Position numbers and translations under genes: made by a program. Positions 6,937 to 42,774 of a DNA stretch of 64,000 nt are shown here, piece after piece. Below the pieces are notes generated by a model. The model saw only the letters and a list, made by a program, of their open reading frames with translations, did not search any database and had not been told where the DNA came from. Source of the DNA: Gammaproteobacteria bacterium (lineage in GTDB: Bacteria > Pseudomonadota > Gammaproteobacteria > UBA6429 > Thiohalophilaceae). The number at the start of each line of letters is the position of its first letter. Position 1 is the first letter of the stretch. The stretch lies in contig JACQBC010000010.1 of assembly GCA_016194635.1 (NCBI GenBank), positions 124,001 through 188,000 on the forward strand, read 5' to 3'.

Positions 6937-9087
6937 TTAAAGCGGGTTTGCCAATGCCAGACTCAAACGGCTAACCTCGATCAACTCGGTAAAGGAAATT
7001 GGAGACGGCTGCCCCTGGCTGACAGCGTTAACAAAAGACTGCGCGCAAGCTTTCTGGCCTTTATCCTGGCGCCACAATGTCATACTCGTGAATTTCGGCC
7101 AGCCATAACCGCGCAGCCGACGGAAATTATCGAGTTGTAGGATACGACCGGCGCAGAATACTTCCAAGCGTTCTTTAGGAAAGGACTTGTGGCCATTGGC
7201 CAGATAGTGCACCGTGCCCATTGAGCCCTCGGCAAACTGCAGAGTAATCGTCATCTTGTCATCACGAATGCCGTAGCCTGCGTTGGGCCCTAGTATCATA
7301 GCGCCGCGATTAACCACCTCGGCGCCGGCAAGATAGCGGAGCAAGTCGATAAAATGACATGCCTCGCCGATAATACGGCCGCCGCCGATATCCCTGTCCT
7401 GGGTCCAGTGCTGCGACGGAATCATACCGGCATTGACGGTCATCACAAACACTTTCGGTTCGCTGACTCCTTGCAACAGCATTTGCATCTTCTGGATCTG
7501 CGGTGCGAAACGGCGGTTAAAACCTACCATCAGTAACGGTGGATTTTCATGCGTCCTGGTCTGTTGATAGGCGATTATAATTTCATCCAGTTGCGCCGGC
7601 GTAATCGCCAGCGGCTTTTCGACAAATACATGCTTGCCTGCATTTAATGCCTCGCACACCATATGCGCATGATTGTCGTGCCGTGTGGTAATGACGGCGG
7701 TATTGATTGCGGTATCATTGAAAATCTCCGTGGCGTCGGTTGTTATTTTATAAAATCCGTATTTTCTACCCGCATGGACACCGCTAACACCCAAACTGGA
7801 AGCCACCGTTTGCAACATGGCGCCCGTCGCCTTAAAAGCGGGAATTAATACTTGTGATGCGTAATTCCCAGAACCTATAAACCCGATCACTACACCCGAT
7901 GGCGGCGCGACAGTGTGTGGTTTCTCCACATGGAGTCTCAGCGTCTGTTCGCGCAGCGGTAGCTCCGGTGACTGCTTGGCGGAGGGGTATTCAAGCAAGA
8001 TCCCTAAGGAAAACCGACCATCCGATACCAACGCATACGCATCCGTGGCATTTTCAAACGCAAAGCGATGCGTAATCAGTCGATCGGTTTGCAGACGTTT
8101 ATCCGCCAGCATGTCGAGTATCGCTTCAAAATTGCGTTGTTCTGTCCAGCGTACGTACCCCACGGGATAATCCTGCCCGGCTTCTTCATAGGCCGGATCG
8201 TAACGGCCCGGACCATAGGAACAGGATACTTGGAAGGTCAATTCTTTCTCAAAAAAATCCGCGCGGGATAATTCCAGCCCGGCCACCCCGACCAGCACAA
8301 TCCGGCCGCGTTTGCGGCACATCTGCGCGGCCTGATGTATCGGCTCGTTGCTTTGGGTGGATGCGGTGATAATCACCGCATCCACGCCGCGTTGCCGGGA
8401 AAATTCCTGGGCGGTCATCAGCGGATCCTGGCCTATCGATAAATCCACGGTGTCAACACCGAACGCGCGCGCCAGCCGCAATTTGTCCTGATCAAAATCC
8501 AGCCCCAGTACCCGGCAGCCCTGTGCTCGTAACAGCTGCACGGTTAGGAGCCCAATCAAGCCCAAGCCGGTTACCACCACCGATTCGCCCAATGTTGGCG
8601 CCGCCAATCGAATACCTTGCAAGGCAATGGCACTCATAACGGTAAACGTCGCGTGTTCATCGCTTACAGTATCCGGAATCCGGGCGCACAGGTGCTTGGA
8701 CACCATGGTCACCTCGGCATGTTTGCCATTAGAAGCCACACGATCGCCAACTTTAAAACCTTCGACACCCTTGCCGACCTCGAGGACAATACCGGCGTTG
8801 CAATAACCCATCGGAATCGGTTGATCCAACTTGTTGCGTATTGTAGTGATCGCCGGGAGTAAACCATCTGTTTTGATTTTATCCAATACCATCCTAACTT
8901 TATCGGGTTGCTGGCGCGCCTTATTGATGAGGCTAGCCTTACCAAACTCCAGCAACATACGCTCGGTCCCAACGGACAGGAGTGATACTGTGCTGCGGAT
9001 CAATAGATGGCCGGGTTTAACGCTTGGACAGGGAATATCCGCTATTTCCGTCGTACCGTTACCCAAGTGCTGAAGGATTTGTTTCAT
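6937..9087 (-). CDS. Bi-domain oxidoreductase: zinc-type alcohol dehydrogenase fused to Gfo/Idh/MocA
   Basis: This is a cytoplasmic protein with two NAD(P)-binding halves. Residues 1-350 are a medium-chain dehydrogenase (GYCNAGIVLEVGKGVEGFKV; Rossmann motif VVTGLGLIGLLTVQLL). The second half, from about residue 380, is a Gfo/Idh/MocA sugar oxidoreductase (VIGFIGSGNYASQVLIPAF, the lysine motif HVFVEKPLAI, and GGGRIIGEACHFIDLLRYLAG). The same fusion is repeatedly found beside heparinase-like proteins in EPS loci, as here. I chose the ATG at 9085-9087 (MKQILQHLG) because the longer frame adds 11 residues unlike the family. The substrate is unknown; a nucleotide or lipid-linked sugar is likely. 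Confidence 0.87.
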   Translation of the reverse strand: MKQILQHLGNGTTEIADIPCPSVKPGHLLIRSTVSLLSVGTERMLLEFGKASLINKARQQPDKVRMVLDKIKTDGLLPAITTIRNKLDQPIPMGYCNAGIVLEVGKGVEGFKVGDRVASNGKHAEVTMVSKHLCARIPDTVSDEHATFTVMSAIALQGIRLAAPTLGESVVVTGLGLIGLLTVQLLRAQGCRVLGLDFDQDKLRLARAFGVDTVDLSIGQDPLMTAQEFSRQRGVDAVIITASTQSNEPIHQAAQMCRKRGRIVLVGVAGLELSRADFFEKELTFQVSCSYGPGRYDPAYEEAGQDYPVGYVRWTEQRNFEAILDMLADKRLQTDRLITHRFAFENATDAYALVSDGRFSLGILLEYPSAKQSPELPLREQTLRLHVEKPHTVAPPSGVVIGFIGSGNYASQVLIPAFKATGAMLQTVASSLGVSGVHAGRKYGFYKITTDATEIFNDTAINTAVITTRHDNHAHMVCEALNAGKHVFVEKPLAITPAQLDEIIIAYQQTRTHENPPLLMVGFNRRFAPQIQKMQMLLQGVSEPKVFVMTVNAGMIPSQHWTQDRDIGGGRIIGEACHFIDLLRYLAGAEVVNRGAMILGPNAGYGIRDDKMTITLQFAEGSMGTVHYLANGHKSFPKERLEVFCAGRILQLDNFRRLRGYGWPKFTSMTLWRQDKGQKACAQSFVNAVSQGQPSPISFTELIEVSRLSLALANPL

Positions 9088-9269
9088 TTTTGTGACATCA
9101 TTATTGGTGACGAATAACAATACCCCATGGATGTTACAAAATCGTTTAAAAATAACACCGCCAATACATGCTTAAATGAAAAATATACGAACCCATGGAC
9201 AACGTGTAAAGCGCAGCAGGTTGGCGACTCGCTACTTGTACGCGCATGTAAGTAACGATATTATGCGGC

Positions 9270-10076
9270 ATGGATGTGGCGAAAAAACAAGTTTATGATT
9301 TCTGGAATGAAGCGTCATGCGGCGAGCAATTGTATCTAAGCGGCACCGAACAATCGGATTATCTAGCGCAAATGCGCAAACGCTACCAATTAGAACCGTA
9401 TATCGAAAGTTTTGCGCAGTTCGTCCAGACTCGTAACCAGGACGTTTTAGAAATCGGCATAGGACTTGGAGCTGACCACCAGCGATTCGCTCAGGCCGGG
9501 GCGCGTTTGACTGGAATTGATTTGACCGAACGGGCGGTGCAACATACGCGCAAGCGTCTCAACCTGTTTGGGTTGGAATCTAATTTACAGGTGGCTGACG
9601 CGGAATCGCTACCCTTTACCAGCGAATCCTACGACTTGGTTTACTCATGGGGTGTATTACATCATTCGCCTAACACTGACCGGGCCATTGATGAGGTTTG
9701 GCGTATCCTACGGTATGGCGGCGCCGCCAGAATTATGATCTATAACAAGTATTCGCTGGTTGGTTATATGCTCTGGCTGCGTTATGCTCTTCTAACCGCT
9801 CAACCATGGACTGGCCTGAATGCTATATATGCCAAGTACCTGGAAAGCCCTGGAACTAAAGCCTACACCCTGGGGCAAGCACGGATATTATTCCGACGAT
9901 TTAGCAATATTAAAATCCATACGGTATTGACCCACGGTGATTTATTGGAATCCGCCGCCGGTCAGCGCCATCGAAGTTGGCTGTTATCAGCGGCAAGACG
10001 TATCTGGCCGCGCCGTTTTATCAAGTCGGTATTGCCGAACCACGGGCTCTTCATGTTAATAGAGGCAATAAAATAA
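9270..10076 (+). CDS. Class I SAM-dependent methyltransferase
   Basis: This 268-residue enzyme has a clear Rossmann-like methyltransferase core: motif I VLEIGIGLGADHQRFAQAG near residue 67, GIDLTERAV as the acidic loop, VADAESLPF, and DLVYSWGVLHHSPNTDRAID followed by EVWRILRYGGAARIM. It is the only plus-strand gene inside the polysaccharide locus. It is divergent from the oxidoreductase, with 182 bases between the starts, and convergent with asnB, 49 bases between the stops. It therefore needs its own promoter. It probably methylates a sugar or lipid intermediate of the locus, but the target cannot be seen. Confidence 0.82.
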   Translation: MDVAKKQVYDFWNEASCGEQLYLSGTEQSDYLAQMRKRYQLEPYIESFAQFVQTRNQDVLEIGIGLGADHQRFAQAGARLTGIDLTERAVQHTRKRLNLFGLESNLQVADAESLPFTSESYDLVYSWGVLHHSPNTDRAIDEVWRILRYGGAARIMIYNKYSLVGYMLWLRYALLTAQPWTGLNAIYAKYLESPGTKAYTLGQARILFRRFSNIKIHTVLTHGDLLESAAGQRHRSWLLSAARRIWPRRFIKSVLPNHGLFMLIEAIK

Positions 10077-10125
10077 AACAGTTTGTTAGACGCTAGAAAT
10101 AAACCGCATCAATCTTCGCGTAGGA

Positions 10126-12060
10126 CTACGCCACCCTCGATTCCTGTAGAAAAGAGCTGCGTGCGTCTATAAAACGTCGGCACCATAGCTCAATACATAA
10201 CATGGCGAAGATTGAATAGGCGGCATCAATCTTGCCGTTGGCATTTTCTTCAATCAGCCGTCTTACGGCAGCGGCGTTGAATATACCGCGATTGTTAATT
10301 GAAGCAGTAGATAAATAGTCTCCAATCATCTCTTTCAGGTCATGGGTTATCCAATAACGCAGTGGCGCCCCAAAACCCGCTTTGGCCCGATAAATCACCT
10401 CACGAGGCAAATAGGTTTCCATGGCTTTCTTGAAAATCCATTTTCCTTCAGTACCTCTTTGCTTTAACTTCGGATCAATTCTGGCCGCAAGTGAAATCAG
10501 ATCTATATCCAGCAATGGAACACGGACTTCCACCCCGTGTGCCATACTCATTTTATCTGTGTAGTTTAGGTTATGATCAGGCAGAAAATATTTACCTTCC
10601 AGATACAGCATTTGATTTAATCGTAACACTGTGTTTGGTAATGCCGTAATGCTCTCTAGCAATGATCGAGATGGTATTTCTTTATACACATCCTGCATGA
10701 CAGGCTCTGATAATATGTTTTCGATGCCAGCTGGGTTTATCCAAAGAAAATAACTAATAAGCCTATCCACGCTGGATTTCTCGGCATATTCAAATGATTT
10801 ACGAAGTCTTCTACCCATAGCTGTAGTTACAGGGATGTGTGAAGACAATAGCTTTAATTTATTCCGAATAGTTTGTGGCAGCCAATCCCATGTTCTTTCC
10901 ATATTAAGAGCAAAGTGTCTGCGATAACCAGTAAAAATATCGTCGCCTCCCGCCCCTGATAGCAGGACCTTAATATTATTTTGTCTTGCCAATTCAGAGA
11001 TAATCATAACATTGATGGGGGCCGGATCCGCCTGGGGCTCATCCATGTGATAAATCATATCTTCCAGACGATCTACAATACTAACATCCGCATGAACTAT
11101 TTTTAATGGTACCGAGAGATATTTCGCTACTTTTTTCGCATACATAAGATCCGAAGACATATTTTCTTTGTCATGGATATTTTCTTCGAATGAGACCGTG
11201 AAACATTGCAACACCTCGTCTTTCATTATTTTTTTGGCGCACGCGACAACCGCACTAGAATCTAGTCCACCGGATAAAAATGCACCTACTGGCACATCAG
11301 AGATCAACTGGCGTTGCACCGCCTGTTCGACCGCCTCACGTACTGCTAGAATCGATTCATCTTCTGACATTATACTAATTTCTTGATCATAGGGTAAATC
11401 ATAGTACTTCCAGTGTTTACTAATTCGCCCTTCTTGTACAATCATTGCATGACCAGGCTCCAGTTTTTTAACCTGCGACAAAATGGTCTTTGGAGCAGGA
11501 CACCATAAGTGTGTGAGATAGTAATAAATAGCACTTGAATCAAGATCCGAAGATACACTTTCGTCACAAAGGATTGCTTTCATTTCACTTGCGAAGATAA
11601 ATCCTTTTGACGTTAGCGAATAATAAAATGGTTTAACCCCGACATGGTCGCGCGCGATGAATAATTCGCGTTTTTCATAATCCCATATTGCAAATGTAAA
11701 TATTCCGTTTAGTTTACAGAGTACATCATGGCCATAGCATAGGTATGCATTTACTAAGACCTCTGTATCGGATTCACTGCGAAATATATATCCTTTCAAA
11801 ATAAGATCTCTTCTCAATGCTACATAATTATATATTTCTCCATTAAAAATAATCACCGCGCGTCGATTTTCATCCCACATTGGTTGTTGACCATGCGCAG
11901 ATAAATCAATAATAGACAATCGACGATGGGCTAAACCGAGGTTGTTTTCTTTAAAATAGAGATGGCCGCCATCATCAGGGCCTCGATGTTGTAATACTGA
12001 CGCCATGCGCGATAATAGTAACTCGTCAAAGCTTCCAGAAAATCCTGCTATGCCACACAT
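10126..12060 (-). CDS. asnB: Asparagine synthase (glutamine-hydrolysing)-type amidotransferase
   Basis: The protein starts MCGIAGFSG, so Cys2 is available as the glutaminase nucleophile. Further N-terminal motifs are LQHRGPDDGG, LAHRRLSIIDLS, IIFNGEIYNY and SESDTEVL. The C-terminal synthetase domain has the PP-loop VGAFLSGGLDSSAVVACA near residue 260 and LLSGAGGDDIFTGYRRHF near 370. With 644 residues it is slightly longer than housekeeping AsnB but normal for versions in EPS and exosortase loci. There it is thought to amidate a sugar acid, which would fit the UDP-ManNAcA pathway genes wecB and wecC in this locus. That role is an inference, and free asparagine synthesis is not excluded. Confidence 0.9.
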   Translation of the reverse strand: MCGIAGFSGSFDELLLSRMASVLQHRGPDDGGHLYFKENNLGLAHRRLSIIDLSAHGQQPMWDENRRAVIIFNGEIYNYVALRRDLILKGYIFRSESDTEVLVNAYLCYGHDVLCKLNGIFTFAIWDYEKRELFIARDHVGVKPFYYSLTSKGFIFASEMKAILCDESVSSDLDSSAIYYYLTHLWCPAPKTILSQVKKLEPGHAMIVQEGRISKHWKYYDLPYDQEISIMSEDESILAVREAVEQAVQRQLISDVPVGAFLSGGLDSSAVVACAKKIMKDEVLQCFTVSFEENIHDKENMSSDLMYAKKVAKYLSVPLKIVHADVSIVDRLEDMIYHMDEPQADPAPINVMIISELARQNNIKVLLSGAGGDDIFTGYRRHFALNMERTWDWLPQTIRNKLKLLSSHIPVTTAMGRRLRKSFEYAEKSSVDRLISYFLWINPAGIENILSEPVMQDVYKEIPSRSLLESITALPNTVLRLNQMLYLEGKYFLPDHNLNYTDKMSMAHGVEVRVPLLDIDLISLAARIDPKLKQRGTEGKWIFKKAMETYLPREVIYRAKAGFGAPLRYWITHDLKEMIGDYLSTASINNRGIFNAAAVRRLIEENANGKIDAAYSIFAMLCIELWCRRFIDARSSFLQESRVA

Positions 12061-12144
12061 TTTTCCTACTTTTACAATGTCTATTTATAGTGAATAACAT
12101 TCACGATTAATGATGCACAAATTCAAAGTACATTATCTCTTCAG

Positions 12145-13299
12145 TCAACCAATAACATCCAACGCTATTGAGTTAAGCTCCTTGTACGTTGCAGCAGCAA
12201 TACTGTCCCAATCCAAAATATACTTCGTTAGCCTAGCTTTACCAAGTAATTTCAATTCCTGTTGTAATTCAGGACTAGTGCAAAATTTTTGAATCGTATT
12301 TTTTATGCTTTCAGTATTATATGGATTAAAATACAGCGCGGCATCATGACAAATGCTTCTTGCAAAATCAATATCACTGGTTAAAATTGGGCAATCGTAT
12401 TGCATTGCCTCAATATAGGTACCGCTAAATGATTCTAGTAGTGTTGGAAAAATCAATGCATGCGCATTACGGTAATACGATCCCAATCTCTCCCTTGGCA
12501 ATGGACCAATATTGACCAGCTGATTTTCTAATTGATATCTTTTAATTGTATGCAATATGTTACGCACATTTTTATGCTGTTTAGAATCAATTGTTATAAA
12601 TATCACCACATCACGCATTTCATTTTTATGAAATCTAAATAATTCTATTAATATTTCTATATTTTTATACGGATAGTATCTTGTCAGTAATAATAGTCGT
12701 ATTTTATTTTTAAAATTTTCATATTCCGATGGATAATCAATTGAATTGTTAATAATATTTACAGAATTATCTGTACCATTTTGACAGATGGCGATTTTAC
12801 TGCAGCCATGATAAACTTTTACTAATCGACTTGCCATCACATCTGTTTGACAAAATGTAAGTCTCGCTTTTTTTAAATTACGCTTTAAACGTGTTCGATG
12901 TAATTCGACCATACACCGTATCAAGAACGATTCTTTACCGTAGTGACTAGATGGATACACGAAATGAGCGTCCTGAAGTAACATAGCCTGCGGGGCTTTT
13001 ACTCTGGAAACCATACGATTACCGAGCGCGAATACCACATGCGGTTTAAATTCATTAATCACATCCGGAAGAATAAATTCATCAAACAACCATCGTCGTA
13101 GTTTATTAAGCCCTGATTTACATGTGTAAATATTTGTATTTCGCCCAGTGGTAATATACCGTTCATACTCTTTTCCTTCAGGAATAGTAATCAGGTAATG
13201 GTCTGAAGCAGCATGGCGTTGTAAACTTGCTATAAGTTCCTGCCCAACTCTTACACCTCCACCAACAGCAAGAGCGTGTGCAATTATCGCAACTCTCAT
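12145..13299 (-). CDS. GT4-family glycosyltransferase
   Basis: This 384-residue GT-B fold transferase begins MRVAIIAHALAVGGGVRVGQ, the usual nucleotide-sugar enzyme start with a glycine-rich loop. The C-terminal half has RLLLLTRYYPYKNIEILIEL, then LIFPTLLESFSGTYIEAMQY, which contains the EX7E-type acid pair, and CPILTSDIDFARSICHDAAL. The gene lies in the AT-rich core of the locus, 84 bases upstream of asnB and 138 bases downstream of a methyltransferase gene. Its donor and acceptor are unknown. The low GC content, like that of its neighbours, suggests arrival as part of an exchanged cassette. Confidence 0.87.
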   Translation of the reverse strand: MRVAIIAHALAVGGGVRVGQELIASLQRHAASDHYLITIPEGKEYERYITTGRNTNIYTCKSGLNKLRRWLFDEFILPDVINEFKPHVVFALGNRMVSRVKAPQAMLLQDAHFVYPSSHYGKESFLIRCMVELHRTRLKRNLKKARLTFCQTDVMASRLVKVYHGCSKIAICQNGTDNSVNIINNSIDYPSEYENFKNKIRLLLLTRYYPYKNIEILIELFRFHKNEMRDVVIFITIDSKQHKNVRNILHTIKRYQLENQLVNIGPLPRERLGSYYRNAHALIFPTLLESFSGTYIEAMQYDCPILTSDIDFARSICHDAALYFNPYNTESIKNTIQKFCTSPELQQELKLLGKARLTKYILDWDSIAAATYKELNSIALDVIG

Positions 13300-34884: not shown

Positions 34885-35766
34885 TTAGATAACAGATTCT
34901 GCTGCCACCAGAATCGTCCCTTCGCCTCGATTCATAGTCCCGGCATCATAGGTATAGTGTACGATCGAGGAACCTTGGTCGAACTCAATGGCCGAGCTAT
35001 TAATGGCGTTCACAGCAGGGTATTCATCTTGGTTGAGCGGAAAAAAGAGATCTTTATCTTTTTTCCTTACAAACCTATATAACTGTGCAGGACGAACTTG
35101 TTTAATTAAATCTATATACAAGGACTGCCATCCTTCAAGACGTAAGCGCAACATCTCCTTCGATAGCGCCAGTTGCCGCGTGATCCCTTGTGCACTCGCT
35201 TTCTCCAGCAATTCCACATGACCGGGATAACTTTCCTTGCCACTGTTGGGTTCATCACCAAATTTCATGGTTGGTCGCGCCAATGCCACATGATCTGATG
35301 CGTTCCCGCCAAATGCGGATAACTTGTACACCAGGGAAATAAAATCGCGATTGATCCCACCCACCAGGTAGCTGCCAATGCCATAAAGCACATTGGCCGG
35401 ATTAAAATCGAACTCTCGCGCCAAACGTTCAAAGTTTGCCACGTCCAATGCCGTCAAACCGGATTCGACAATAACGCTGGGCATTGATGCGCTATTGCTA
35501 AACCGTTGCCGCAAGCTAGAGGCTATAGTTTTAAACTGAGCACGCAAATCTCCAGAATCCAAGCGCACACTTAATTTGAGTTTTCCTTCAAACCGCGCGC
35601 GATGTTTCTCAATAACCGCTAGGGCAGCCGGGAAGCCACCTGTCAACGTATCGCGCGTATCCAGCAAGAACGCTAGGCTGAGTGGTTCATCTAAATTCTC
35701 TATGTCTTGATACTGCAACATACGATGAATGAATATGAATCGCCAACAACGCACAGCCATGGGCAA
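34885..35766 (-). pseudogene. 3' remnant of a nicotinate phosphoribosyltransferase gene
   Basis: The 293-residue frame matches the second part of nicotinate phosphoribosyltransferases: SLAFLLDTRDTLTGGFPAAL, LKLSVRLDSGDLRAQF (the conserved phosphate-binding loop region), NPANVLYGIGSYLVGG, FISLVYKLSAFGG and PTMKFGDEPNSGKESYPGHV. Full enzymes of this family are about 400-490 residues. The N-terminal catalytic part is missing, and the first 15 residues or so (MPMAVRCWRFIFIHR, from a TTG) do not look native. The upstream edge lies only 38 bases from the fusA terminator hairpin. I judge it a truncated gene, probably not active as an NAD-salvage enzyme; a short but functional variant is less likely. 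Confidence 0.7.
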
Positions 35767-35846: not shown

Positions 35847-37898
35847 TTACTTCTTAATATTTTCAACGATATTCGCTGGCACCTTATCGTAATGCTCAAA
35901 CTGCATCGTAAAATTGGCGCGACCAGAGCTTAAGCTGCGCAAATTCCCGATATAGCCAAACATCTCCGCTAAAGGCACATGAGCCTGAACACTTATCCAA
36001 GTTTCATACCCATCCTGACCGATGATTTTACCGCGACGGCGGTTCAGATCTCCGATACAGTCACCGAGATAGTCGCTCGGTGTGTTCACTACCACACGCA
36101 TAACCGGCTCCAACAGGATCGGATGCGACTGTTGCATCCCTTGCCGGTAGGCGCCCTGCGCCGCGAGTTCAAACGCAAATGTTGATGAGTCCACTTCATG
36201 ATAATCACCACCCAACAAAGTGGCCCTGAAGTCGACACAGGGATACCCGGCAATTACACCCGAGCGCGCAGCGGCACGTATGCCTTTCTCCACACCTGGA
36301 ATATATTCCTTGGGTATTTCACCTCCCACAACATTGTTTATAAACTCAATACCAACGCCACGAGGCAACGGTTCAAAACGCATTGTTACGACTGCAAATG
36401 TCCCCGGGCCGCCTCCCTGCTTCTTCACCCGATAGGTCAGCTCGCACGGTCTACTTATCGTTTCGCGATACGCAACCTGCGGGGCACCTACGTTGGCCGT
36501 TACCCCAAAATCATTGAGCAGGCGGTTTATTTTCACTTCCAGGTGCAACTCGCCCATACCTGACAGTATTGTCTGCCCTGTTTCCTGATTCACCTTAATC
36601 GCCAGACTAGGGTCTTCCTTGACGAGTTGATGCAAGGATTGCAATAACTTGTCTTCGTCAGATTTTGTCTTGGGCTCCAAGGCCACATCAATCACCGGTT
36701 CAGGAAATACCATGCGCTCCAATACAACAGGCGCATCAGGATCGCTCAACGTATCGCCCGTCACCGTATACTTCAAGCCTACCACGGCCACGATATCACC
36801 CGCCGAGATAGCTTCCCGCTCTAGGCGTTTATCCGCCTGCATTTCATAGATACGGCTAATGCGCTCTTTCCTGCCCGTGACGGTATTCACTACCGATGTC
36901 CCGGCAAGAATGTGACCACTATAGGCGCGTAAAAAGGTTAATGCACCGAATTTGTCGTTGACCACTTTAAATGCCAAAGCGGCAAATGGCTCTGCCACAT
37001 CATTGTGGCGTGTTACCGCTGCCTCTCCCGCCGCAACGACGCATTTTACCGCCGACACCTCCATTGGCGATGGCAAATAAGCCACAACGGCATCCAGCAG
37101 TGGCTGTACGGCCTTATTTTTATAGGCCGAACCGCATAACACAGGCACAAATTTTCTGTTAAGTGTTACCTGCCGAATACATTGCGTAATCACCTGTGGT
37201 TCGGGAATCACCCCTCTCAGATAGGCAGACAATGCCACGTCATCCTGGTCCAACACCTTGTCAAGCAATAACTCGCGATAGTGCTGCGCATTGGCTTGCA
37301 TCTGTGCAGGGATCTCGGCGCTACGATATTGCACACCCTTTGGATCGGTATCCCAATACACGGCACGCATATTAACCAGATCGACTATTCCGACAAATGC
37401 CTCCTCTGAACCGATTGGCAGTTGCAACACCAACGCCTTGGTCGCCAGTCTTTCTTCTATCATGTTCACAACCCGATAGAAATCCGCACCGGCGCGGTCC
37501 AGCTTATTCACATAGCACAACCGCGGTACACCGTATTGATCGGCCAGCCGCCAGTTGGTTTCTGATTGAGGTTCCACACCCGCAACCCCGTCAAACACCA
37601 CTACGGCACCATCAAGAACTCGCAGGGCTCGATTCACTTCAACATTAAAATCAATATGGCCTGGTGTATCAATGATTGTTATCCGATGCTCTTGCCAATA
37701 CACCGATGTCGCCGCACTATAGATCGTGATCCCGCGCTTACGTTCTTCCGGATCAAAATCGGTTGTGGTTGTACCGTGGTGTACTTCACCCAGCTTATGA
37801 CTTGCCCCCGCGAAGTACAAAATGCGTTCCGTTAACGTGGTTTTGCCTGCGTCTACATGCGCAATGATGCCAATATTTCTTAAACGTCGGATATCCAT
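35847..37898 (-). CDS. fusA: Elongation factor G (stand-alone copy)
   Basis: A 683-residue translational GTPase that moves tRNA and mRNA through the ribosome. The G domain has P-loop AHVDAGKTTLTERI, the switch regions KRGITIYSAATSVYW and IIDTPGHIDFNVEVNRAL, and CYVNKLDRAGADF as the guanine-specificity motif. Domains II-V follow in order, with ILSGMGELHLEVKINRLLND and PGVEKGIRAAARSG. It is slightly shorter than the main EF-G of about 700 residues and is not beside rpsL, rpsG or tufA, so it is probably a second, paralogous EF-G. It ends in its own terminator. Its divergence from the main copy cannot be judged here. Confidence 0.92.
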   Translation of the reverse strand: MDIRRLRNIGIIAHVDAGKTTLTERILYFAGASHKLGEVHHGTTTTDFDPEERKRGITIYSAATSVYWQEHRITIIDTPGHIDFNVEVNRALRVLDGAVVVFDGVAGVEPQSETNWRLADQYGVPRLCYVNKLDRAGADFYRVVNMIEERLATKALVLQLPIGSEEAFVGIVDLVNMRAVYWDTDPKGVQYRSAEIPAQMQANAQHYRELLLDKVLDQDDVALSAYLRGVIPEPQVITQCIRQVTLNRKFVPVLCGSAYKNKAVQPLLDAVVAYLPSPMEVSAVKCVVAAGEAAVTRHNDVAEPFAALAFKVVNDKFGALTFLRAYSGHILAGTSVVNTVTGRKERISRIYEMQADKRLEREAISAGDIVAVVGLKYTVTGDTLSDPDAPVVLERMVFPEPVIDVALEPKTKSDEDKLLQSLHQLVKEDPSLAIKVNQETGQTILSGMGELHLEVKINRLLNDFGVTANVGAPQVAYRETISRPCELTYRVKKQGGGPGTFAVVTMRFEPLPRGVGIEFINNVVGGEIPKEYIPGVEKGIRAAARSGVIAGYPCVDFRATLLGGDYHEVDSSTFAFELAAQGAYRQGMQQSHPILLEPVMRVVVNTPSDYLGDCIGDLNRRRGKIIGQDGYETWISVQAHVPLAEMFGYIGNLRSLSSGRANFTMQFEHYDKVPANIVENIKK

Positions 37899-37938
37899 AC
37901 ACTATCTCACTATATTTTTTCAGTATATTTCGCTTCCT

Positions 37939-37979
37939 GAAAAAAGAACACCCTGACAAACTCGCGCCTGCCAGGGTGT
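37939..37979 (-). terminator. Minus-strand terminator upstream of fusA
   Basis: ACACCCTG (37948-37955) pairs with CAGGGTGT (37972-37979), and on the minus strand it is followed by TCTTTTTTC. It lies about 40 bases before the fusA start. It therefore ends a separate short minus-strand transcript or acts as an attenuator in the fusA leader. Confidence 0.65.
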
Positions 37980-38030
37980 CTTTACTGGAAGGCCATGAAC
38001 GTAACCTTCCTGCCAATCAATATTGGAAAG

Positions 38031-38162
38031 CTACGTGGATACCACTGAAATGGCTGCGGCCGCACGGAAAACGCCAAGGCACACATAACCCTTAGCCTTA
38101 GTAAAACCGCGACCTCGTATCACTGAACGACGATTAATCTGTAAATGTCGTAGTTGTCTCAT
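38031..38162 (-). CDS. Candidate 43-residue basic small protein or gene remnant
   Basis: An open frame of 43 residues starting at the ATG at 38160-38162. The product is strongly basic (MRQLRHLQINRRSVIRGRG, then FTKAKGYVCLGVFRAAAAIS). It lies between two hairpin terminators, at 38214-38254 and 37939-37979, so it would form a short unit of its own in front of fusA. The frame stays open upstream of the ATG for some 19 codons, so it could be a fragment of a longer lost gene. I do not recognise it. No convincing ribosome site is visible. Confidence 0.25.
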   Translation of the reverse strand: MRQLRHLQINRRSVIRGRGFTKAKGYVCLGVFRAAAAISVVST

Positions 38163-38213
38163 AATTGACTCGCTTTTATCACGCAACCATTCATGACGAA
38201 CCCTACAAAACCC

Positions 38214-38254
38214 ATAAAAAAACCCCGGTGGGGGTTGGCCTACCAGGGTTTTTA
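38214..38254. terminator. Bidirectional hairpin terminator
   Basis: AACCCCGGT (38221-38229) pairs with ACCAGGGTT (38242-38250), allowing one G-T pair. There is a T run on both strands (TTTTT after 38248 on plus, the A run at 38214-38222 on minus). No gene in either direction clearly needs it, which makes the surrounding gap look like the site of lost genes. Confidence 0.65.
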
Positions 38255-38875
38255 TGTGGGAGGCCGATCGTGCGACTCGCCTCCTAAGTATTTGAACTAA
38301 AAGGCTAGTCTATTAACACCAAAATGTATGCGCGGTCGCTTACCACGGCGGTGATACCGTTTGGCGTACTCAAAAATGCTGCGTTGTTCGATTTCATGGA
38401 GGCATATTATAGGTGAAATCATCGAATATACAAGGTCGATTTAATAATTTTATCTTTAATAGAACACAGAGTAACGATTCATTTTGTTTCTTCGCACCAT
38501 CCTAAGTTCATCGGCTGATAAAGTCTGAAGCAACGCCACAAGCATGGCTCGCCTATTCAGTTTGAATGGGCTGGGCCAACAATCCTCGCAACAGACATTC
38601 ACTTAAGAACCAAATGAGCGCCGGGTTTGATCGCCACCCAACAGGACAGTCAATGCGATCGGCAATCATAAATCAGTTGGTTCAATTTATTAAATATTCC
38701 AGTTACGGCCATACGTGCCATCAAGGAGTTCTGGTGGTTGGTTGTATCAACGATAGCTTTCAAAGCTTCCAATGACAAGACCAGGAGTAATTTACCCAGT
38801 CAATCTTTATTTACTTCCATGACAACCTATTTAATGCTATTGCTTTACTTAATTACTAGCGGAGTGACTGAATCA
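38255..38875. other. Non-coding stretch with a GGAGGC hairpin and possible gene relics
   Basis: Just after the terminator there is a further inverted repeat, GGGAGGC near 38258 with GCCTCC near 38279. On the minus strand around 38410-38310 a short frame reads like the end of a protein (EIEQRSIFEYAKRYHRRGK). Around 38790-38640 another gives LEALKAIVDTTNHQNSLMAR. Both are cut by stops within about 40 residues and lack starts, so I treat them as possible relics. Nothing else is supported here. Confidence 0.3.
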
Positions 38876-39061
38876 TCAAGAGATGAGTCTTCTCGCCTGG
38901 TTTAACAATTCAATTCGCCGCATTTCATCCAAATCAGAATAGATCTCCATCAACTCACGCAATTGCGCTGGAAACGCCTGGCACACCGGATCATGTTCGA
39001 TATGCTGCTCATCCATCCAGCCTGTGGGCTTTTGATAAAACTTCTCACAACGCCGAACCAT
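38876..39061 (-). CDS. Candidate 61-residue protein divergent from the HNH gene
   Basis: From the ATG at 39059-39061 the minus strand encodes 61 residues with a plausible soluble helical composition (FYQKPTGWMDEQHIEHDPVC, then FPAQLRELMEIYSDLDEMRR). The frame continues further upstream, antisense to the HNH gene, but that part looks like a shadow. The start lies only 17 bases from the start of the HNH gene, so the two would be tightly divergent with almost no room for promoters. I do not recognise the product and see no good ribosome site, so it may be a relic. Confidence 0.3.
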   Translation of the reverse strand: MVRRCEKFYQKPTGWMDEQHIEHDPVCQAFPAQLRELMEIYSDLDEMRRIELLNQARRLIS

Positions 39062-39077
39062 ATGCACACTCACGATA

Positions 39078-39638
39078 TTGGTGCTGCGCGCTGATGTTAA
39101 CGGCAGTGCGGTTGGTTGGCTGGAATGGGAAGATGCCGTGGTGTTGTATGCCACCGATAAGGTGTTGTACACCTTGGGCGATCCCTCACTGCGGATCCGC
39201 GGGGGAGTGTGCGGTGCGACAGGTGCTCGAACAGAGTTGGCACTGCACCCGGTGATCTTCACCCATGGGTTCTCGCGGGATGTGCTGCTGGGCCGGCGTG
39301 CACCATTGATCCGGCGAGCCTTGTTTCGGCGTGATGCGAATCTGTGCCTGTATTGTGGTAAACAGTTTCACCAGCGGGATCTGACGATAGATCACGTGAC
39401 TCCGCGTTCACGTGGTGGGCAGCATAGCTGGCAGAACGTGGCAAGTAGCTGCCGGCGGTGTAACGCTCGCAAGAGTGATCAGACGCCGGAGCAGGCGCGG
39501 ATGAACTTGATTGCCGTGCCGTACGAGCCCTGCTACGAGGAATACCTATTGCTCACCGTTGGGCAGCGGCGGATCCTCGCTGATCAGATGAGCTTTTTGC
39601 TGGATCGTTGTCCCAAGCACGACCGGCTGTGGATTTAA
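39078..39638 (+). CDS. HNH endonuclease family protein
   Basis: A 186-residue protein whose N-terminal half (LRADVNGSAVGWLEWEDAVV, ATDKVLYTLGDPSLRIRGG) matches the family of small stand-alone HNH proteins that begin with a strand-rich domain. The HNH zinc-finger core follows: CLYCGKQFHQRDLTIDHVTP, SRGGQHSWQNVASSCRRCNA and RKSDQTPEQA. It has both CxxC pairs and the catalytic histidine in DHV. No in-frame ATG exists near the family start; the likely starts are TTG at 39078 or GTG at 39081. It is followed after 28 bases by the ribosome site and GTG of the broken Ro60 gene, as if once in one operon with it. The DNA or RNA target is unknown. Confidence 0.78.
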   Translation: MVLRADVNGSAVGWLEWEDAVVLYATDKVLYTLGDPSLRIRGGVCGATGARTELALHPVIFTHGFSRDVLLGRRAPLIRRALFRRDANLCLYCGKQFHQRDLTIDHVTPRSRGGQHSWQNVASSCRRCNARKSDQTPEQARMNLIAVPYEPCYEEYLLLTVGQRRILADQMSFLLDRCPKHDRLWI

Positions 39639-39666
39639 AAGAAGTAAAGAAGTAAGGAGATAACCA

Positions 39667-40365
39667 GTGGCAAACAAGAAGTTTTTTACTAGTCGTGCGG
39701 CGGATATCGTACATAACTGGTGGGGTAGCCTTTGCGATCAACGACAAGGCTGCGTTGGTGAACTACGCCCTGCTGGGTACTTTCAACAGCACCTACTACA
39801 CCGACGCAGTGATGGATGTTGAGCGTCTGCGTGACTTGGCGATGACGCTAGAGCCGTTGTTTCTGGCAAAGTTGCGGTATTGGCCCGTGAGCGTGGTTTC
39901 ATGCGTGACATACCGGCCTTTCTGGCAGCGGCATTGAGCGTGCGGGATGTGGCATTGCTGGAAAAGGTGTTCCCGCGCGTAATCAACAACGCCGCGATGT
40001 TGCGTAACTTTGTGCAGATCATCCGTAGTAATGTGTTTGGACGTCGTTCGCTAGGTTCGGCACCGAAGCGGTTGGTGGCGCAGTGGATCACGCAGGCCAG
40101 CCCGCGGTAATTGATCAACGCCGTCGGTCAGTCGCCCTCGATGGCGGACGTGATCAAGCTGGCAACGGCCACGTCCACAGGATCAGATCCGTGAAGCGTT
40201 GTACGGTTACTTGATTGGCAAGGTTGAGGCAGGTGACGCCCGTCTGCCGGATCTGGTACGCGAGTTCGAAGCGTTCCAGATGACCGGTAACGGTGCAGTA
40301 CCGGCGGTGGATTTCCGCTTGTTGACTCCGCTATCGTTGAGCACAAAACAATGGGTTGGAACCGC
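39667..40365 (+). pseudogene. Broken Ro60/TROVE-domain RNA-binding protein gene (rsr-like)
   Basis: Three frames together read as the TROVE domain of bacterial Ro60. After AAGGAGATAACCA and a GTG start come ANKKFFTSRAADIV. A frameshift near 39715 leads to GGVAFAINDKAALVNYALLG and then MTLEPLFLAK. A second shift near 39870 leads to VAVLARERGFMRDIPAFLAA, VFPRVINNAAMLRNFVQIIR and NVFGRRSLGSAPKRLVAQWI. A TAA at 40108-40110 interrupts it, after which LINAVGQSPSMADVIKL continues. A third shift before 40181 leads to REALYGYLIGKVEAGDARLP and DFRLLTPLSLSTKQW. The C-terminal vWA part is gone. Ro60 binds Y RNAs and misfolded RNA and is often next to rtcB, as here. The gene is clearly dead. Confidence 0.85.
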
Positions 40366-40431
40366 AACGGCGCGTGAAGGGCAACGCTTCAAGGCACGGC
40401 AACCGCAAGCCAAGTTGGCGTGCCTTGATCT

Positions 40432-40575
40432 GATACCGAACCGTACAATAAGGATACCGAGATGATCGATGAAGCACCGGCTGCCTACAAACCGATTGAT
40501 ACCGTACTGCAAGCGCAACGTGATTTGATAGAGGTAGTACATACTCTGCGGCAGACGTGTGCGTCAGGGGGGTGA
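40432..40575 (+). pseudogene. C-terminal remnant of an RtcB RNA ligase gene
   Basis: The last 48 codons read DTEPYNKDTEMIDEAPAAYK, PIDTVLQAQRDLIEVVHTLR and a damaged end QTCASGG before TGA. This matches the C-terminus of bacterial RtcB, where an acidic-EAP-AYK-ID-V--AQ-DL-EV-HTL-Q segment is followed by VVCVKG. The end here has small indels relative to that motif. The rest of the ligase, with its metal and guanylylated-histidine sites, is missing. It follows the broken Ro60 gene after about 65 bases that fit neither gene well, so one deletion probably joined the two. tRNA-Glu lies 26 bases beyond on the other strand. Confidence 0.75.
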
Positions 40576-40601
40576 CATGCCGGTCGTAATAGTCGTAATA
40601 A

Positions 40602-40678
40602 TGGCGTCCCCAAGGGGATTCGAACCCCTGTTACCGCCGTGAAAGGGCGATGTCCTAGGCCGGCTAGACGATGGGGAC
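40602..40678 (-). tRNA. tRNA-Glu (UUC)
   Basis: The minus strand folds into a full cloverleaf. The acceptor GTCCCC pairs with GGGGAC, the anticodon arm is CGCCC-TTTCACG-style with anticodon TTC, and the T-loop is GTTCGAATCC. CCA is encoded at the 3' end (40602-40604). Length 77 with CCA. It is the last gene of the gltX–glnS–tRNA-Ala run, after a small membrane protein. Confidence 0.93.
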
Positions 40679-40691
40679 GCAGGTCGTACAC

Positions 40692-40892
40692 TTACTTATC
40701 TTTATCAGTGGGTTCACCTAACAAAATTCCGACCAATCCTGTTAGTACACTGACAAAGCCCATTGGGATTAAACCCAACCATGGTATTGCACGGTTATCA
40801 CGGCTAATAAACATCACCGTGAATCCGACCACAAGTCCTACCACAATCAAGACCAGGCCGAGGTACAGTACCATCCGTCCAAAACGCATCAT
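40692..40892 (-). CDS. Small two-helix membrane protein
   Basis: A 66-residue protein lying between the tRNA-Ala and tRNA-Glu genes in the same direction, 13 bases before the tRNA-Glu. It has two clear membrane helices (MVLYLGLVLIVVGLVVGFTV and WLGLIPMGFVSVLTGLVGIL) with a short loop FISRDNRAIP, and a charged end GEPTDKDK. The family may be a DUF2905-like protein, since that group has the same PWLGL-type segment, length and topology, but I am not certain. It would be transcribed with the tRNAs from the promoter upstream of tRNA-Ala. Function unknown. Confidence 0.6.
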   Translation of the reverse strand: MMRFGRMVLYLGLVLIVVGLVVGFTVMFISRDNRAIPWLGLIPMGFVSVLTGLVGILLGEPTDKDK

Positions 40893-40902
40893 AGAAAAAT
40901 AT

Positions 40903-40978
<76 letters not shown>

Positions 40979-40995
40979 GAAAAAACGGAACGCGA

Positions 40996-41024
40996 ACTCT
41001 ACGCGAGGCATGCTGTCCTGTCAA
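40996..41024 (-). promoter_or_regulatory. Sigma-70-type promoter for the tRNA-Ala/tRNA-Glu unit
   Basis: On the minus strand TTGACA (41019-41024) and TAGAGT (40996-41001) are separated by exactly 17 bases. A GC-rich discriminator follows, and the tRNA-Ala 5' end is 17 bases beyond the -10 box. This is the typical form of a stable-RNA promoter. Confidence 0.75.
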
Positions 41025-41082
41025 GAATTAAAACAGCCCCCTGAAAGTTTTTCTTTTGTATTATCAATGTGTTATCGATCAA

Positions 41083-42774
41083 CTACTTGTCGCTTTTAGC
41101 CCAGGTATCGCGCAATGTCACGGTTCGATTAAAGACCAGGGGAGCGCCGTCCGGGGATTGCTCATCCAAACAAAAATACCCTTCACGTTCAAATTGAAAG
41201 CGATCCTGCGGCTTCGCATTCGCCAGGGCGGGCTCAAGAACCGCCACACTATTTATATGAAGTGAGTCAGGGTTGAGGTACGCGGTATAGTCTTTATTCT
41301 CGCGGCTGCCCTGGACATCGGGATTGGGCACGATGAATAACCGATCGTACAGGCGTAGTTTGGCGCGGATGGCATGCCGGGCAGAGACCCAATGGATCAC
41401 CCCCGCGACCTTGCGGCCCACCGGGTTGGTACCAAGGGTGGCGGCGTCATAACTGCAATGTAATTCCTGCACGGTACCGCCGGCATCTTTGATGACTTCA
41501 TCACAGCGGATCACATAGCCGTAACGTAAGCGCACCTCGCCACCGGGGATCAGGCGTTTAAAACCTTTCGGCGGAGATTCCATAAAATCATTGCGGTCAA
41601 TAAATATTTCCGCGCAAAAAGCAATCTCACGGTTACCAAATTCCGCTTTTTGGGGGTGGTTGGCCGCGGTTAACCTTTCAACCTTATCGTAGGGGTAGTT
41701 AGTGATTAGGACCTTGAGTGGATGCAACACCGCCATACGCCGAATCGCGCGTTCGTTCAGATCATTGCGGATACAATCTTCGAGTAAACTCATTTCGACG
41801 ATGTTATCCGCCTTGGTGACACCGATGCGCAAACAGAAATCACGAATCGACTCGGGGGTAAATCCTCGTCGACGTAAACCGGCAATCGTCGGCATACGTG
41901 GGTCGTTCCAGCCGTCGACAAGTTTTTTTTGCACCAGCTCGGTGAGTTTACGTTTACTCATCACGGTATATTCCAGATTTAAACGTGAGAATTCGATCTG
42001 TTGTGGATGGCAAGGGGCTTTTAATACGTCTAATACCCAGTCGTATAACGGTCGATGATCTTCAAACTCCAAGGTACACAGCGAATGGGTGATGCCTTCC
42101 AGCATGTCCGACAAGCAATGGGCATAGTCGTACATGGGATAGATACACCACTTGCTGCCCGTTTGGTGGTGCTCGGCGTCTTTTTTGATGCGGTAAATCG
42201 TCGGGTCACGCAGGTTTATATTGGGCGAAGCCATGTCGATCTTGGCGCGCAACACGCGCGACCCGTCGGGGAATTCGCCCTTACGCATACGATCAAACAG
42301 GCCGAGATTTTCCGCCACCGAGCGATTACGGTAGGGACTGTCTTTACCGGGTTGGGTCAATGTTCCGCGGTATTCACGCATTTGTTCAAAGGAGAGATCG
42401 CACACATAGGCCTTGCCGAGTTTGATCAATTGCAAGGCAAAATCGTATAACTTATCAAAATAATCCGAGGCGTAATACAAGTGGGTCCATTTAAAACCCA
42501 GCCATTGCACATCTTGTTTGATCGATTCGACATATTCAATGTCTTCCTTGGCCGGATTGGTGTCATCAAAGCGTAAATTACACGTGCCGTGATAGTCCTG
42601 TGCGATGCCAAAATTCAACACGATGGACTTGGCGTGTCCGATATGCAAATAACCGTTGGGTTCGGGCGGAAAACGCGTTGCCACCCGGCTACCGTTTTTG
42701 CCACTGGCCAAATCCGCGTCGATGATTTGGCGAATAAAGTTGCTGGGGCGAGGATTATTGCTGGTGTCGTTCAT
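41083..42774 (-). CDS. glnS: Glutamine-tRNA ligase
   Basis: A class I aminoacyl-tRNA synthetase of 563 residues that charges tRNA-Gln. The N-terminal Rossmann domain has [20 protein letters not shown] (HIGH motif) and the dinucleotide-fold residues [19 protein letters not shown]. The second signature is [16 protein letters not shown] (KMSKS equivalent). The C-terminal beta-barrel anticodon-binding domains follow ([24 protein letters not shown]-like [19 protein letters not shown]). Length is normal. It lies 15 bases after gltX in the same direction, so the Glu and Gln synthetases form an operon. GlnS also shows that the organism charges tRNA-Gln directly. Confidence 0.96.

Follow-up and report, generated by a model that had tools for sequence, protein, structure and literature searches.

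Remnants of a TROVE gene, of rtcB and of an HTH regulator beside an HNH gene in a gammaproteobacterium: a probable collapsed tRNA-array island

The locus and its broken genes

In the window, by which we mean the whole analysed stretch of 64,000 nucleotides from a genome of the family Thiohalophilaceae, a group of damaged genes lies at positions 38876-40575. At its left end, on the minus strand (38876-39073), an HTH/XRE-like regulator of the type associated with tRNA arrays is left as a C-terminal stump of about 55-60 amino acids (residues ~139-193 of 199). This regulator stands divergently to the genes behind it and has lost its N-terminal two thirds. The stump forms the last ~60 codons of a minus-strand frame (39262-38876) without meaningful Pfam match, and is recognised by 58% identity over 55 amino acids to the copy of a relative (G006, L190:4239-4838); also in the intact regulator of ~199 amino acids HTH_3 is recognised weakly (0.00026, just under the curated cut-off). 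The next gene is an HNH endonuclease frame on the plus strand (39078-39638; Pfam HNH_5 1.6e-17; 51% identity to the nearest relative), with 186 amino acids from a TTG. This gene had been described as intact, which is correct for the frame, as it is open, full-length in comparison with homologues and alignable from codon 1, but not for its start: there is no ATG, and in the alignment with the G006 copy Met1 falls on a CTC at 39069, at the breakpoint, where the start has been lost. For this protein PADLOC returned nothing beyond HNH-domain matches, and for the other six proteins no match at all. The deletion junction between regulator and HNH gene lies at 39056-39077. Homology to the regulator ends at 39055 with two references or at 39073 with two others, and homology to the HNH proteins begins at 39069-39078 with three of four references, the fourth being the more distant HNH of L107, whose alignment starts at 39081 with a doubtful stretch in front of it. 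Stump and HNH gene meet within ~20 bp and are both truncated there, and neither tRNA genes nor their remnants were found between them in tRNA and Rfam scans.

Behind the HNH gene, positions 39667-40398 are a dead TROVE (Ro60/Rsr) gene with frame changes, a stop codon and no vWA half, all pieces of which lie on the plus strand. The N-terminal, MANK-like piece (VANKKFF..., 39667-39717), read directly from the sequence, begins with a GTG at 39667, has an AAGGAG upstream and is like the MANxxLF start of intact TROVE proteins. A frameshift-aware alignment against three intact TROVE proteins traces the continuation in another frame at 39719-39874, then at 39874-40164 with the in-frame TAA at 40108-40110, and finally from 40166 to ~40354-40398, where the homology fades near residue 236-248 of ~517; about half of the protein is represented, and the vWA half is therefore gone. 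The alignment agrees with the frameshifts that had been proposed near 39715, near 39870 and before 40181, and confirms the TAA at 40108 as well as the break before the vWA part. Also the TROVE assignment as such is borne out by homology: the piece of 76 amino acids at 39880-40107 shares 51-74% identity with TROVE-type proteins of 80 genome loci (retained out of 134 that encode a relative), 45-62% with plasmid proteins (in 20 of 54 plasmid records, among the matches listed) and 55% with the protein of one phage, and it matches TROVE proteins on 26 viral contigs.

The Pfam TROVE model gave no match to the fragments of the window. This silence carries no weight against the assignment, because the one intact TROVE relative tested (L115) was missed by this model as well and matched by vWA_Ro60, and for the same reason the negative outcome of PF05731 searches of the source genome and of 96 genomes is uninformative. 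When the 96 genomes were searched with the TROVE fragment, only the source genome gave a match, and there was none among solved structures searched with one fragment. In L115 (7764-9311), a proteobacterial protein, only the vWA half is seen by Pfam, and Pfam-based surveys may therefore overlook truncated TROVE members.

A second deletion junction follows at 40399-40449. In the frameshift-aware alignment, TROVE lacks its vWA half and RtcB its residues 1-365 there, and the gap between the two genes is missing as well; in intact loci, the gap and YrlA are present. What remains of rtcB is a C-terminal stump at 40450-40571 on the plus strand, which corresponds to RtcB residues 366-406, with a further frame change near 40556 and 63% identity over 41 amino acids to the RtcB of X. 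sacchari (Pfam RtcB matches 40429-40575 at 1.3e-8). The original prediction of the last 48 codons of rtcB was thus right about the C-terminus but too long, since the homology covers ~41 codons. Of the genes of an rsr-yrl-rtcBA operon, the window holds TROVE as a dead N-terminal half and, downstream on the same strand, rtcB as a mere C-terminal stump, and the unit is dead in place, as had been proposed. No rtcA was found within the window, and no rtcR either; in the source genome there is no full-length RtcR match, as the nine matches cover only residues 165-481 of 536, presumably the part common to other sigma-54 activators. A Y RNA remnant or YrlA was not found at 37900-41000 with Rfam, and as the rsr-rtcB gap is deleted here, this does not inform about the ancestor.

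The breaks could in principle be errors of assembly or sequencing in genes that are alive. Losses of hundreds of bases or more, such as the front of the HTH gene, the vWA half of TROVE and 365 residues of RtcB, are impossible as base errors, however, several lesions fall within 900 bp, and the EF-G-like, glnS and gltX genes around the locus have uninterrupted frames. It is thus extremely unlikely that the genes are functional.

The surroundings

The tRNA-Glu gene (TTC; 40602-40678, minus strand; tRNA scan of the window) is indeed located 26 bases from position 40575. The order tRNA-Glu, small frame, tRNA-Ala, glnS, gltX is shared by all six relatives searched and the cluster is therefore ancestral, which means that the neighbouring tRNA-Glu and tRNA-Ala are housekeeping genes outside the repair unit. 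On the left side, there are EF-G-like and NAPRT-like genes that were not found beside tRNA-Glu in the stretches of the six relatives, and the island therefore sits at a place of rearrangement. For a possible integration at tRNA-Glu no mark was recognised, as neither a second copy of the tRNA 3' end was seen in the window nor an att-like repeat at 37900-42000. The island has a GC content of 55-57%; just left of it the value is 44-46%, and on the right it stays at 48-54% until 44.2 kb. As the window reaches 58-60% beyond that point, GC alone is no mark of foreign origin.

Some further observations concern this neighbourhood. Upstream of the EF-G-like gene (35847-37898), on the minus strand at 37899-38270, two terminator-like hairpins with T runs, located at about 38215-38260 and 37930-37980, enclose the apparent frame of a short leader peptide with its ATG at 38162 (read by eye). 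This is possibly a translation-attenuation leader; Rfam matches there are sub-threshold. The NAPRTase-like frame (34885-35766, minus strand; 293 amino acids from TTG) matches positions 110-221 of the 239 positions of the Pfam domain with 24 bits, and it may be N-terminally truncated and thus a second damaged gene near the relic. In the relative G008 (L188, C20, 844-7158), CRISPR-type repeats and long frames like cas1 and cas9, named only from their look, lie near the tRNA-Glu/glnS cluster, on the same side as the relic of the window.

TROVE loci, the ordinary operon and tRNA arrays

In Salmonella, broken tRNAs switch on the rsr-yrl-rtcBA operon via RtcR, as far as the available part of the source goes (PMC7790460). 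With the rsr-yrlBA-rtcBA genes described there, the window shares a TROVE (Rsr) gene that is followed by rtcB on one strand, but it has no rtcR, Y RNA or rtcA, and it has an HNH gene and an HTH stump in front. The 80 TROVE loci, screened with X. sacchari reference proteins, usually have the order rtcR (minus strand), TROVE, gap, rtcB, rtcA, with rtcB in 62, rtcR in 61 and rtcA in 53 loci, which are lower bounds since the flanks reach up to 8 kb and many end at contig ends. YrlA reaches the Rfam cut-off in the gap in five of eight loci scanned (L002, L097, L107, L118 and L148, not L115, L135 and L139).

A full-length HNH of the window's family is near TROVE in only two of the 80 loci, those of Albitalea (L107) and Scleromatobacter (L139), and in both it stands directly behind a tRNA array, with 18 tRNA genes in L107 and eight in L139. 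The order in both is array, HNH, rtcR, TROVE, rtcB, rtcA, with a slipin gene between rtcR and TROVE in L107. The 80 loci also include four shorter HNH matches (L121, L122, L136 and L166), of which three again adjoin tRNA rows. As a regular member of the rtcR-type operon, the HNH gene can thus be rejected, and the idea that it might be an unrecognised member of the repair operon holds only in a changed form, as the gene is supported as a companion of tRNA-array islands with rtcB or TROVE.

At least five tRNA genes lie within the fetched stretch in nine of the 80 genome TROVE loci (L105, L107, L122, L127, L132, L136, L139, L143 and L166) and in five of the 26 viral ones (L007 and L008 look like copies), both being raw counts. 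The nine loci span Acidobacteriota, Myxococcota, Planctomycetota and Sphaerotilaceae, and in L143 the tRNA genes lie beyond rtcA. On the TROVE tree, the array label changes nine times (shuffled mean 12.3). With such a scattered label, arrays and TROVE came together repeatedly, and TROVE kinship alone says little. The tree left out L112, L126 and 22 of the 26 viral loci, and duplicate or truncated rows are L008, L012, L017, L018, L027, L112 and L126. The window's TROVE groups with that of Pseudothauera (L129) in the careful tree (98/92), and as its branch is long (1.33) this placement is a hint. In L129 (6779-11005), a TROVE-rtcB pair begins ~75 bases behind tRNA-His, which comes after tRNA-Met and tRNA-Phe; no rtcR, HTH or HNH gene was detected within reach there. 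The class of the source genome is poor in TROVE: in 369 genomes three intact genes were counted, to which a partial match in G307 and the wreck of the source genome have to be added.

Islands with regulator, tRNA array and HNH in relatives

The HTH regulator is rare, with a match in seven of 40 genomes of the order and in three of 276 genomes of the class, one of which is the source genome (the two sets overlap). Nine intact copies were found in these genomes, and six of them have 6-19 tRNA genes directly upstream: 19 each in G006 and G008, 12 in G039, nine in G185 and six each in G034 and G307. A seventh, on contig C20 of the source genome itself, has a single tRNA-Lys upstream, and the remaining two (G020 and G032), on contigs of 3.1-3.5 kb with 1.6 and ~1 kb of upstream sequence, have no tRNA there. 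Wherever regulator and HNH occur on one contig (G006, G008, G034, G039 and G307), the arrangement is a divergent HTH gene, tRNA genes and HNH, in the order and on the strands of the window, without exception in these five relatives. A second HNH copy is found in three genomes of the window's own family (G006, G008 and G027) between the tRNA array and slipin, PcfJ-like and/or 320-amino-acid genes plus rtcB; slipin and rtcB follow HNH in all three, and in G027 no HTH gene was found. In G039, slipin and PcfJ follow up to the contig end, in G034 slipin without rtcB in ~6 kb to the contig end, and in G307 neither slipin nor rtcB within ~8 kb. RNA repair genes on the HNH side, as present in the window, are thus not constant in the relatives. 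No intact relative was found with the exact order HTH, array, HNH, TROVE, rtcB, as the islands of the family have slipin/PcfJ without TROVE and those of L107 and L139 have rtcR without HTH.

The source genome keeps an intact rtcB on C20, where it is part of what looks like a reduced island (L193, C20:41000-60000, 8411-12760) with an intact HTH gene, one tRNA-Lys(TTT), slipin and this rtcB, without HNH or array. In another genome (L219, G279 C3, 5170-8651), the same parts are arranged differently, as a run of sixteen tRNA genes leads directly into rtcB, with HNH behind it, all on one strand. In the one congener examined, the HTH gene, TROVE and the neighbourhood of the relic were not found.

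The origin of the HNH gene was addressed by a tree of 49 rows, outside of which are partial copies (L200, L201 and L206), the G039 copy and places without a full-length locus. One set of HNH loci was selected deliberately: six class genomes with two or three copies contributed 13, and G034, G032, G027 and four high-scoring ones were added; counts from this set are not rates. In the tree, 25 HNHs form a chromosomal clade (96/89) that holds the C4 HNH of the source genome as sister to the copy of its congener. The window has another HNH gene, whose long branch lies outside this clade. If this gene is placed with the six array HNHs, the log-likelihood drops by 0.8 units (AU p 0.47), and if it is placed with the chromosomal clade, by 7.3 units (AU p 0.10), which is not rejected; the placement of the gene thus leans to the array lineage. 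A tRNA gene within 1.5 kb was found for none of the 25 chromosomal-clade HNHs, some of whose loci reach contig ends, and for five of the six array-clade HNHs, with 6-11 tRNAs. The HNH copies that adjoin rtcB in G185 and G192 have no tRNA within 1.5 kb.

From these data, it might be argued that an ordinary rsr-(yrl)-rtcB operon has decayed and that HNH gene and HTH stump are unrelated neighbours which came there by rearrangement. The rsr-gap-rtcB order is common, as seen from the rtcB and rtcR counts above, HNHs of this family are widespread, with copies in 133 of 276 class genomes, and the AU test leaves the chromosomal clade open to the HNH of the window. However, the source genome already has its chromosomal HNH at C4, the HNH of the window being a second and different copy, genes of the rare HTH family stand mostly at arrays, with the HNH on the far side in all five cases, and the rtcR that would be expected is missing in the window and has no full-length match in the genome. 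An ordinary operon with chance neighbours is therefore rather unlikely. Even less likely is that the remnant was brought in by a phage or plasmid equipped with tRNAs, HNH and TROVE and never was a chromosomal repair island. Viral contigs with all three exist (L007, L008 and L030), and the rearranged left-hand side would be compatible with such an entry, but rtcB was detected in none of the 26 viral TROVE loci, the islands that the HTH stump matches are found on long contigs within the same family, and an att-like repeat was not seen. The difference between this very improbable scenario and a collapsed island lies mainly in the route of arrival.

The collapsed island and its likely function

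As HTH stump and HNH gene are truncated within ~20 bp and all five relatives have tRNA genes between the two, a collapsed island is favoured: positions 38876-40575 are probably what is left of an island with the order HTH, tRNA array, HNH, TROVE, rtcB that has lost its array, half of TROVE (the vWA part) and rtcB but for its last ~41 codons. Judged by the relatives, tRNA genes would once have stood at this very locus, of which no trace remains. We infer two deletions, numbered here in a putative order. The first would have started within the HTH gene and ended at codon 1 of HNH, thereby fusing the HTH stump to the HNH gene and removing what the relatives have in between, the array. The second would have removed the vWA half of TROVE together with most of rtcB, and frameshifts and the stop would have accumulated besides.

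When whole, the island would have begun with a divergent HTH regulator and continued with a series of spare tRNA genes, followed by genes for an HNH endonuclease, a Ro60-like TROVE protein and the RNA ligase RtcB. Known systems suggest by analogy that an attack on translation or on tRNAs would make the regulator release the array. For tRNAs that have been cleaved, the spare ones would then serve as replacements and RtcB as the re-ligating enzyme, and TROVE would be the binder of RNA that is misfolded or resembles tRNA. The HNH endonuclease would most likely drive the mobility or reshuffling of the array.

Parts of such a system are known from several groups, as far as the accessible portions of the articles cited here tell. 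Among the protein genes of Mycobacterium tRNA arrays, that of an HNH-type endonuclease is the most widespread, and in arrays of group G2 an XRE regulator occurs with HNH in ~87% (PMC5966550). HNH and XRE regulator are thus shared with the window, whereas RtcB and TROVE are not mentioned in the accessible text of that article. In M. avium, one HNH gene is embedded in all four array types, which again is the feature shared with the window, and XRE, TROVE and "repair" do not appear in the part of the source at hand (PMC12803027). In contrast to these arrays, the locus of the window would have lost its tRNAs. Archaeal tRNA gene clusters have a TROVE gene in 20 of 29 cases and HNH genes in their genomic context (PMC6333295); TROVE and HNH are thus shared with the window, but the clusters are archaeal, and RtcB is not mentioned in the available sections. 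In Anabaena, deletion of the TrcR repressor lifts the repression of a 26-tRNA array and also of rtcB, slipin and two HNH genes, and translational stress likewise releases the repression of the array (PMC10272220). Unlike the HTH_3-like protein of the window, where all genes form one cluster, TrcR is a ribbon-helix-helix protein, and most genes of its regulon lie apart from the array, according to the accessible text (PMC10272220). Jumbo phages can have many tRNAs and RtcB-type ligases, and a small subset has TROVE; a single array with an HTH regulator is not described for these RNA-repair sets in the portion available (PMC7824862). In a cyanobacterium in co-culture, TROVE and RtcB genes were found to be raised together, as the available excerpt states (PMC11423583). 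One of the Anabaena HNH genes, all8564, is presumably located on the plasmid of the array, as the locus numbering suggests.

tRNA arrays, HNH genes, Ro60/TROVE and RtcB have thus each already been described, and pairings of these components are reported in several groups. A joint tRNA-array cluster with rtcB and an HTH regulator was not found in searches of the open-access literature, subscription journals and preprints being outside the scope of this search. With some reservation, as the chances for it are slightly below even, HTH-controlled arrays with HNH, slipin/PcfJ and/or TROVE, and RtcB could be regarded as one mobile "replace and mend" island against anticodon nucleases, whose parts would be induced together and which would have been assembled more than once in bacteria and phages; the locus of the window and the one on C20 would then represent two collapsed stages of it.

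The purpose of spare tRNA rows in bacteria and phages is still argued about, and where such arrays stand beside genes for an RNA ligase, for TROVE and for a regulator of their own, this suggests a concrete and testable role, namely the survival of tRNA-cutting attacks. The wreck described here is possibly a fossil of the loss of such an island, in which the array would have been excised cleanly, whereas the repair genes have been shortened and are full of frame changes.
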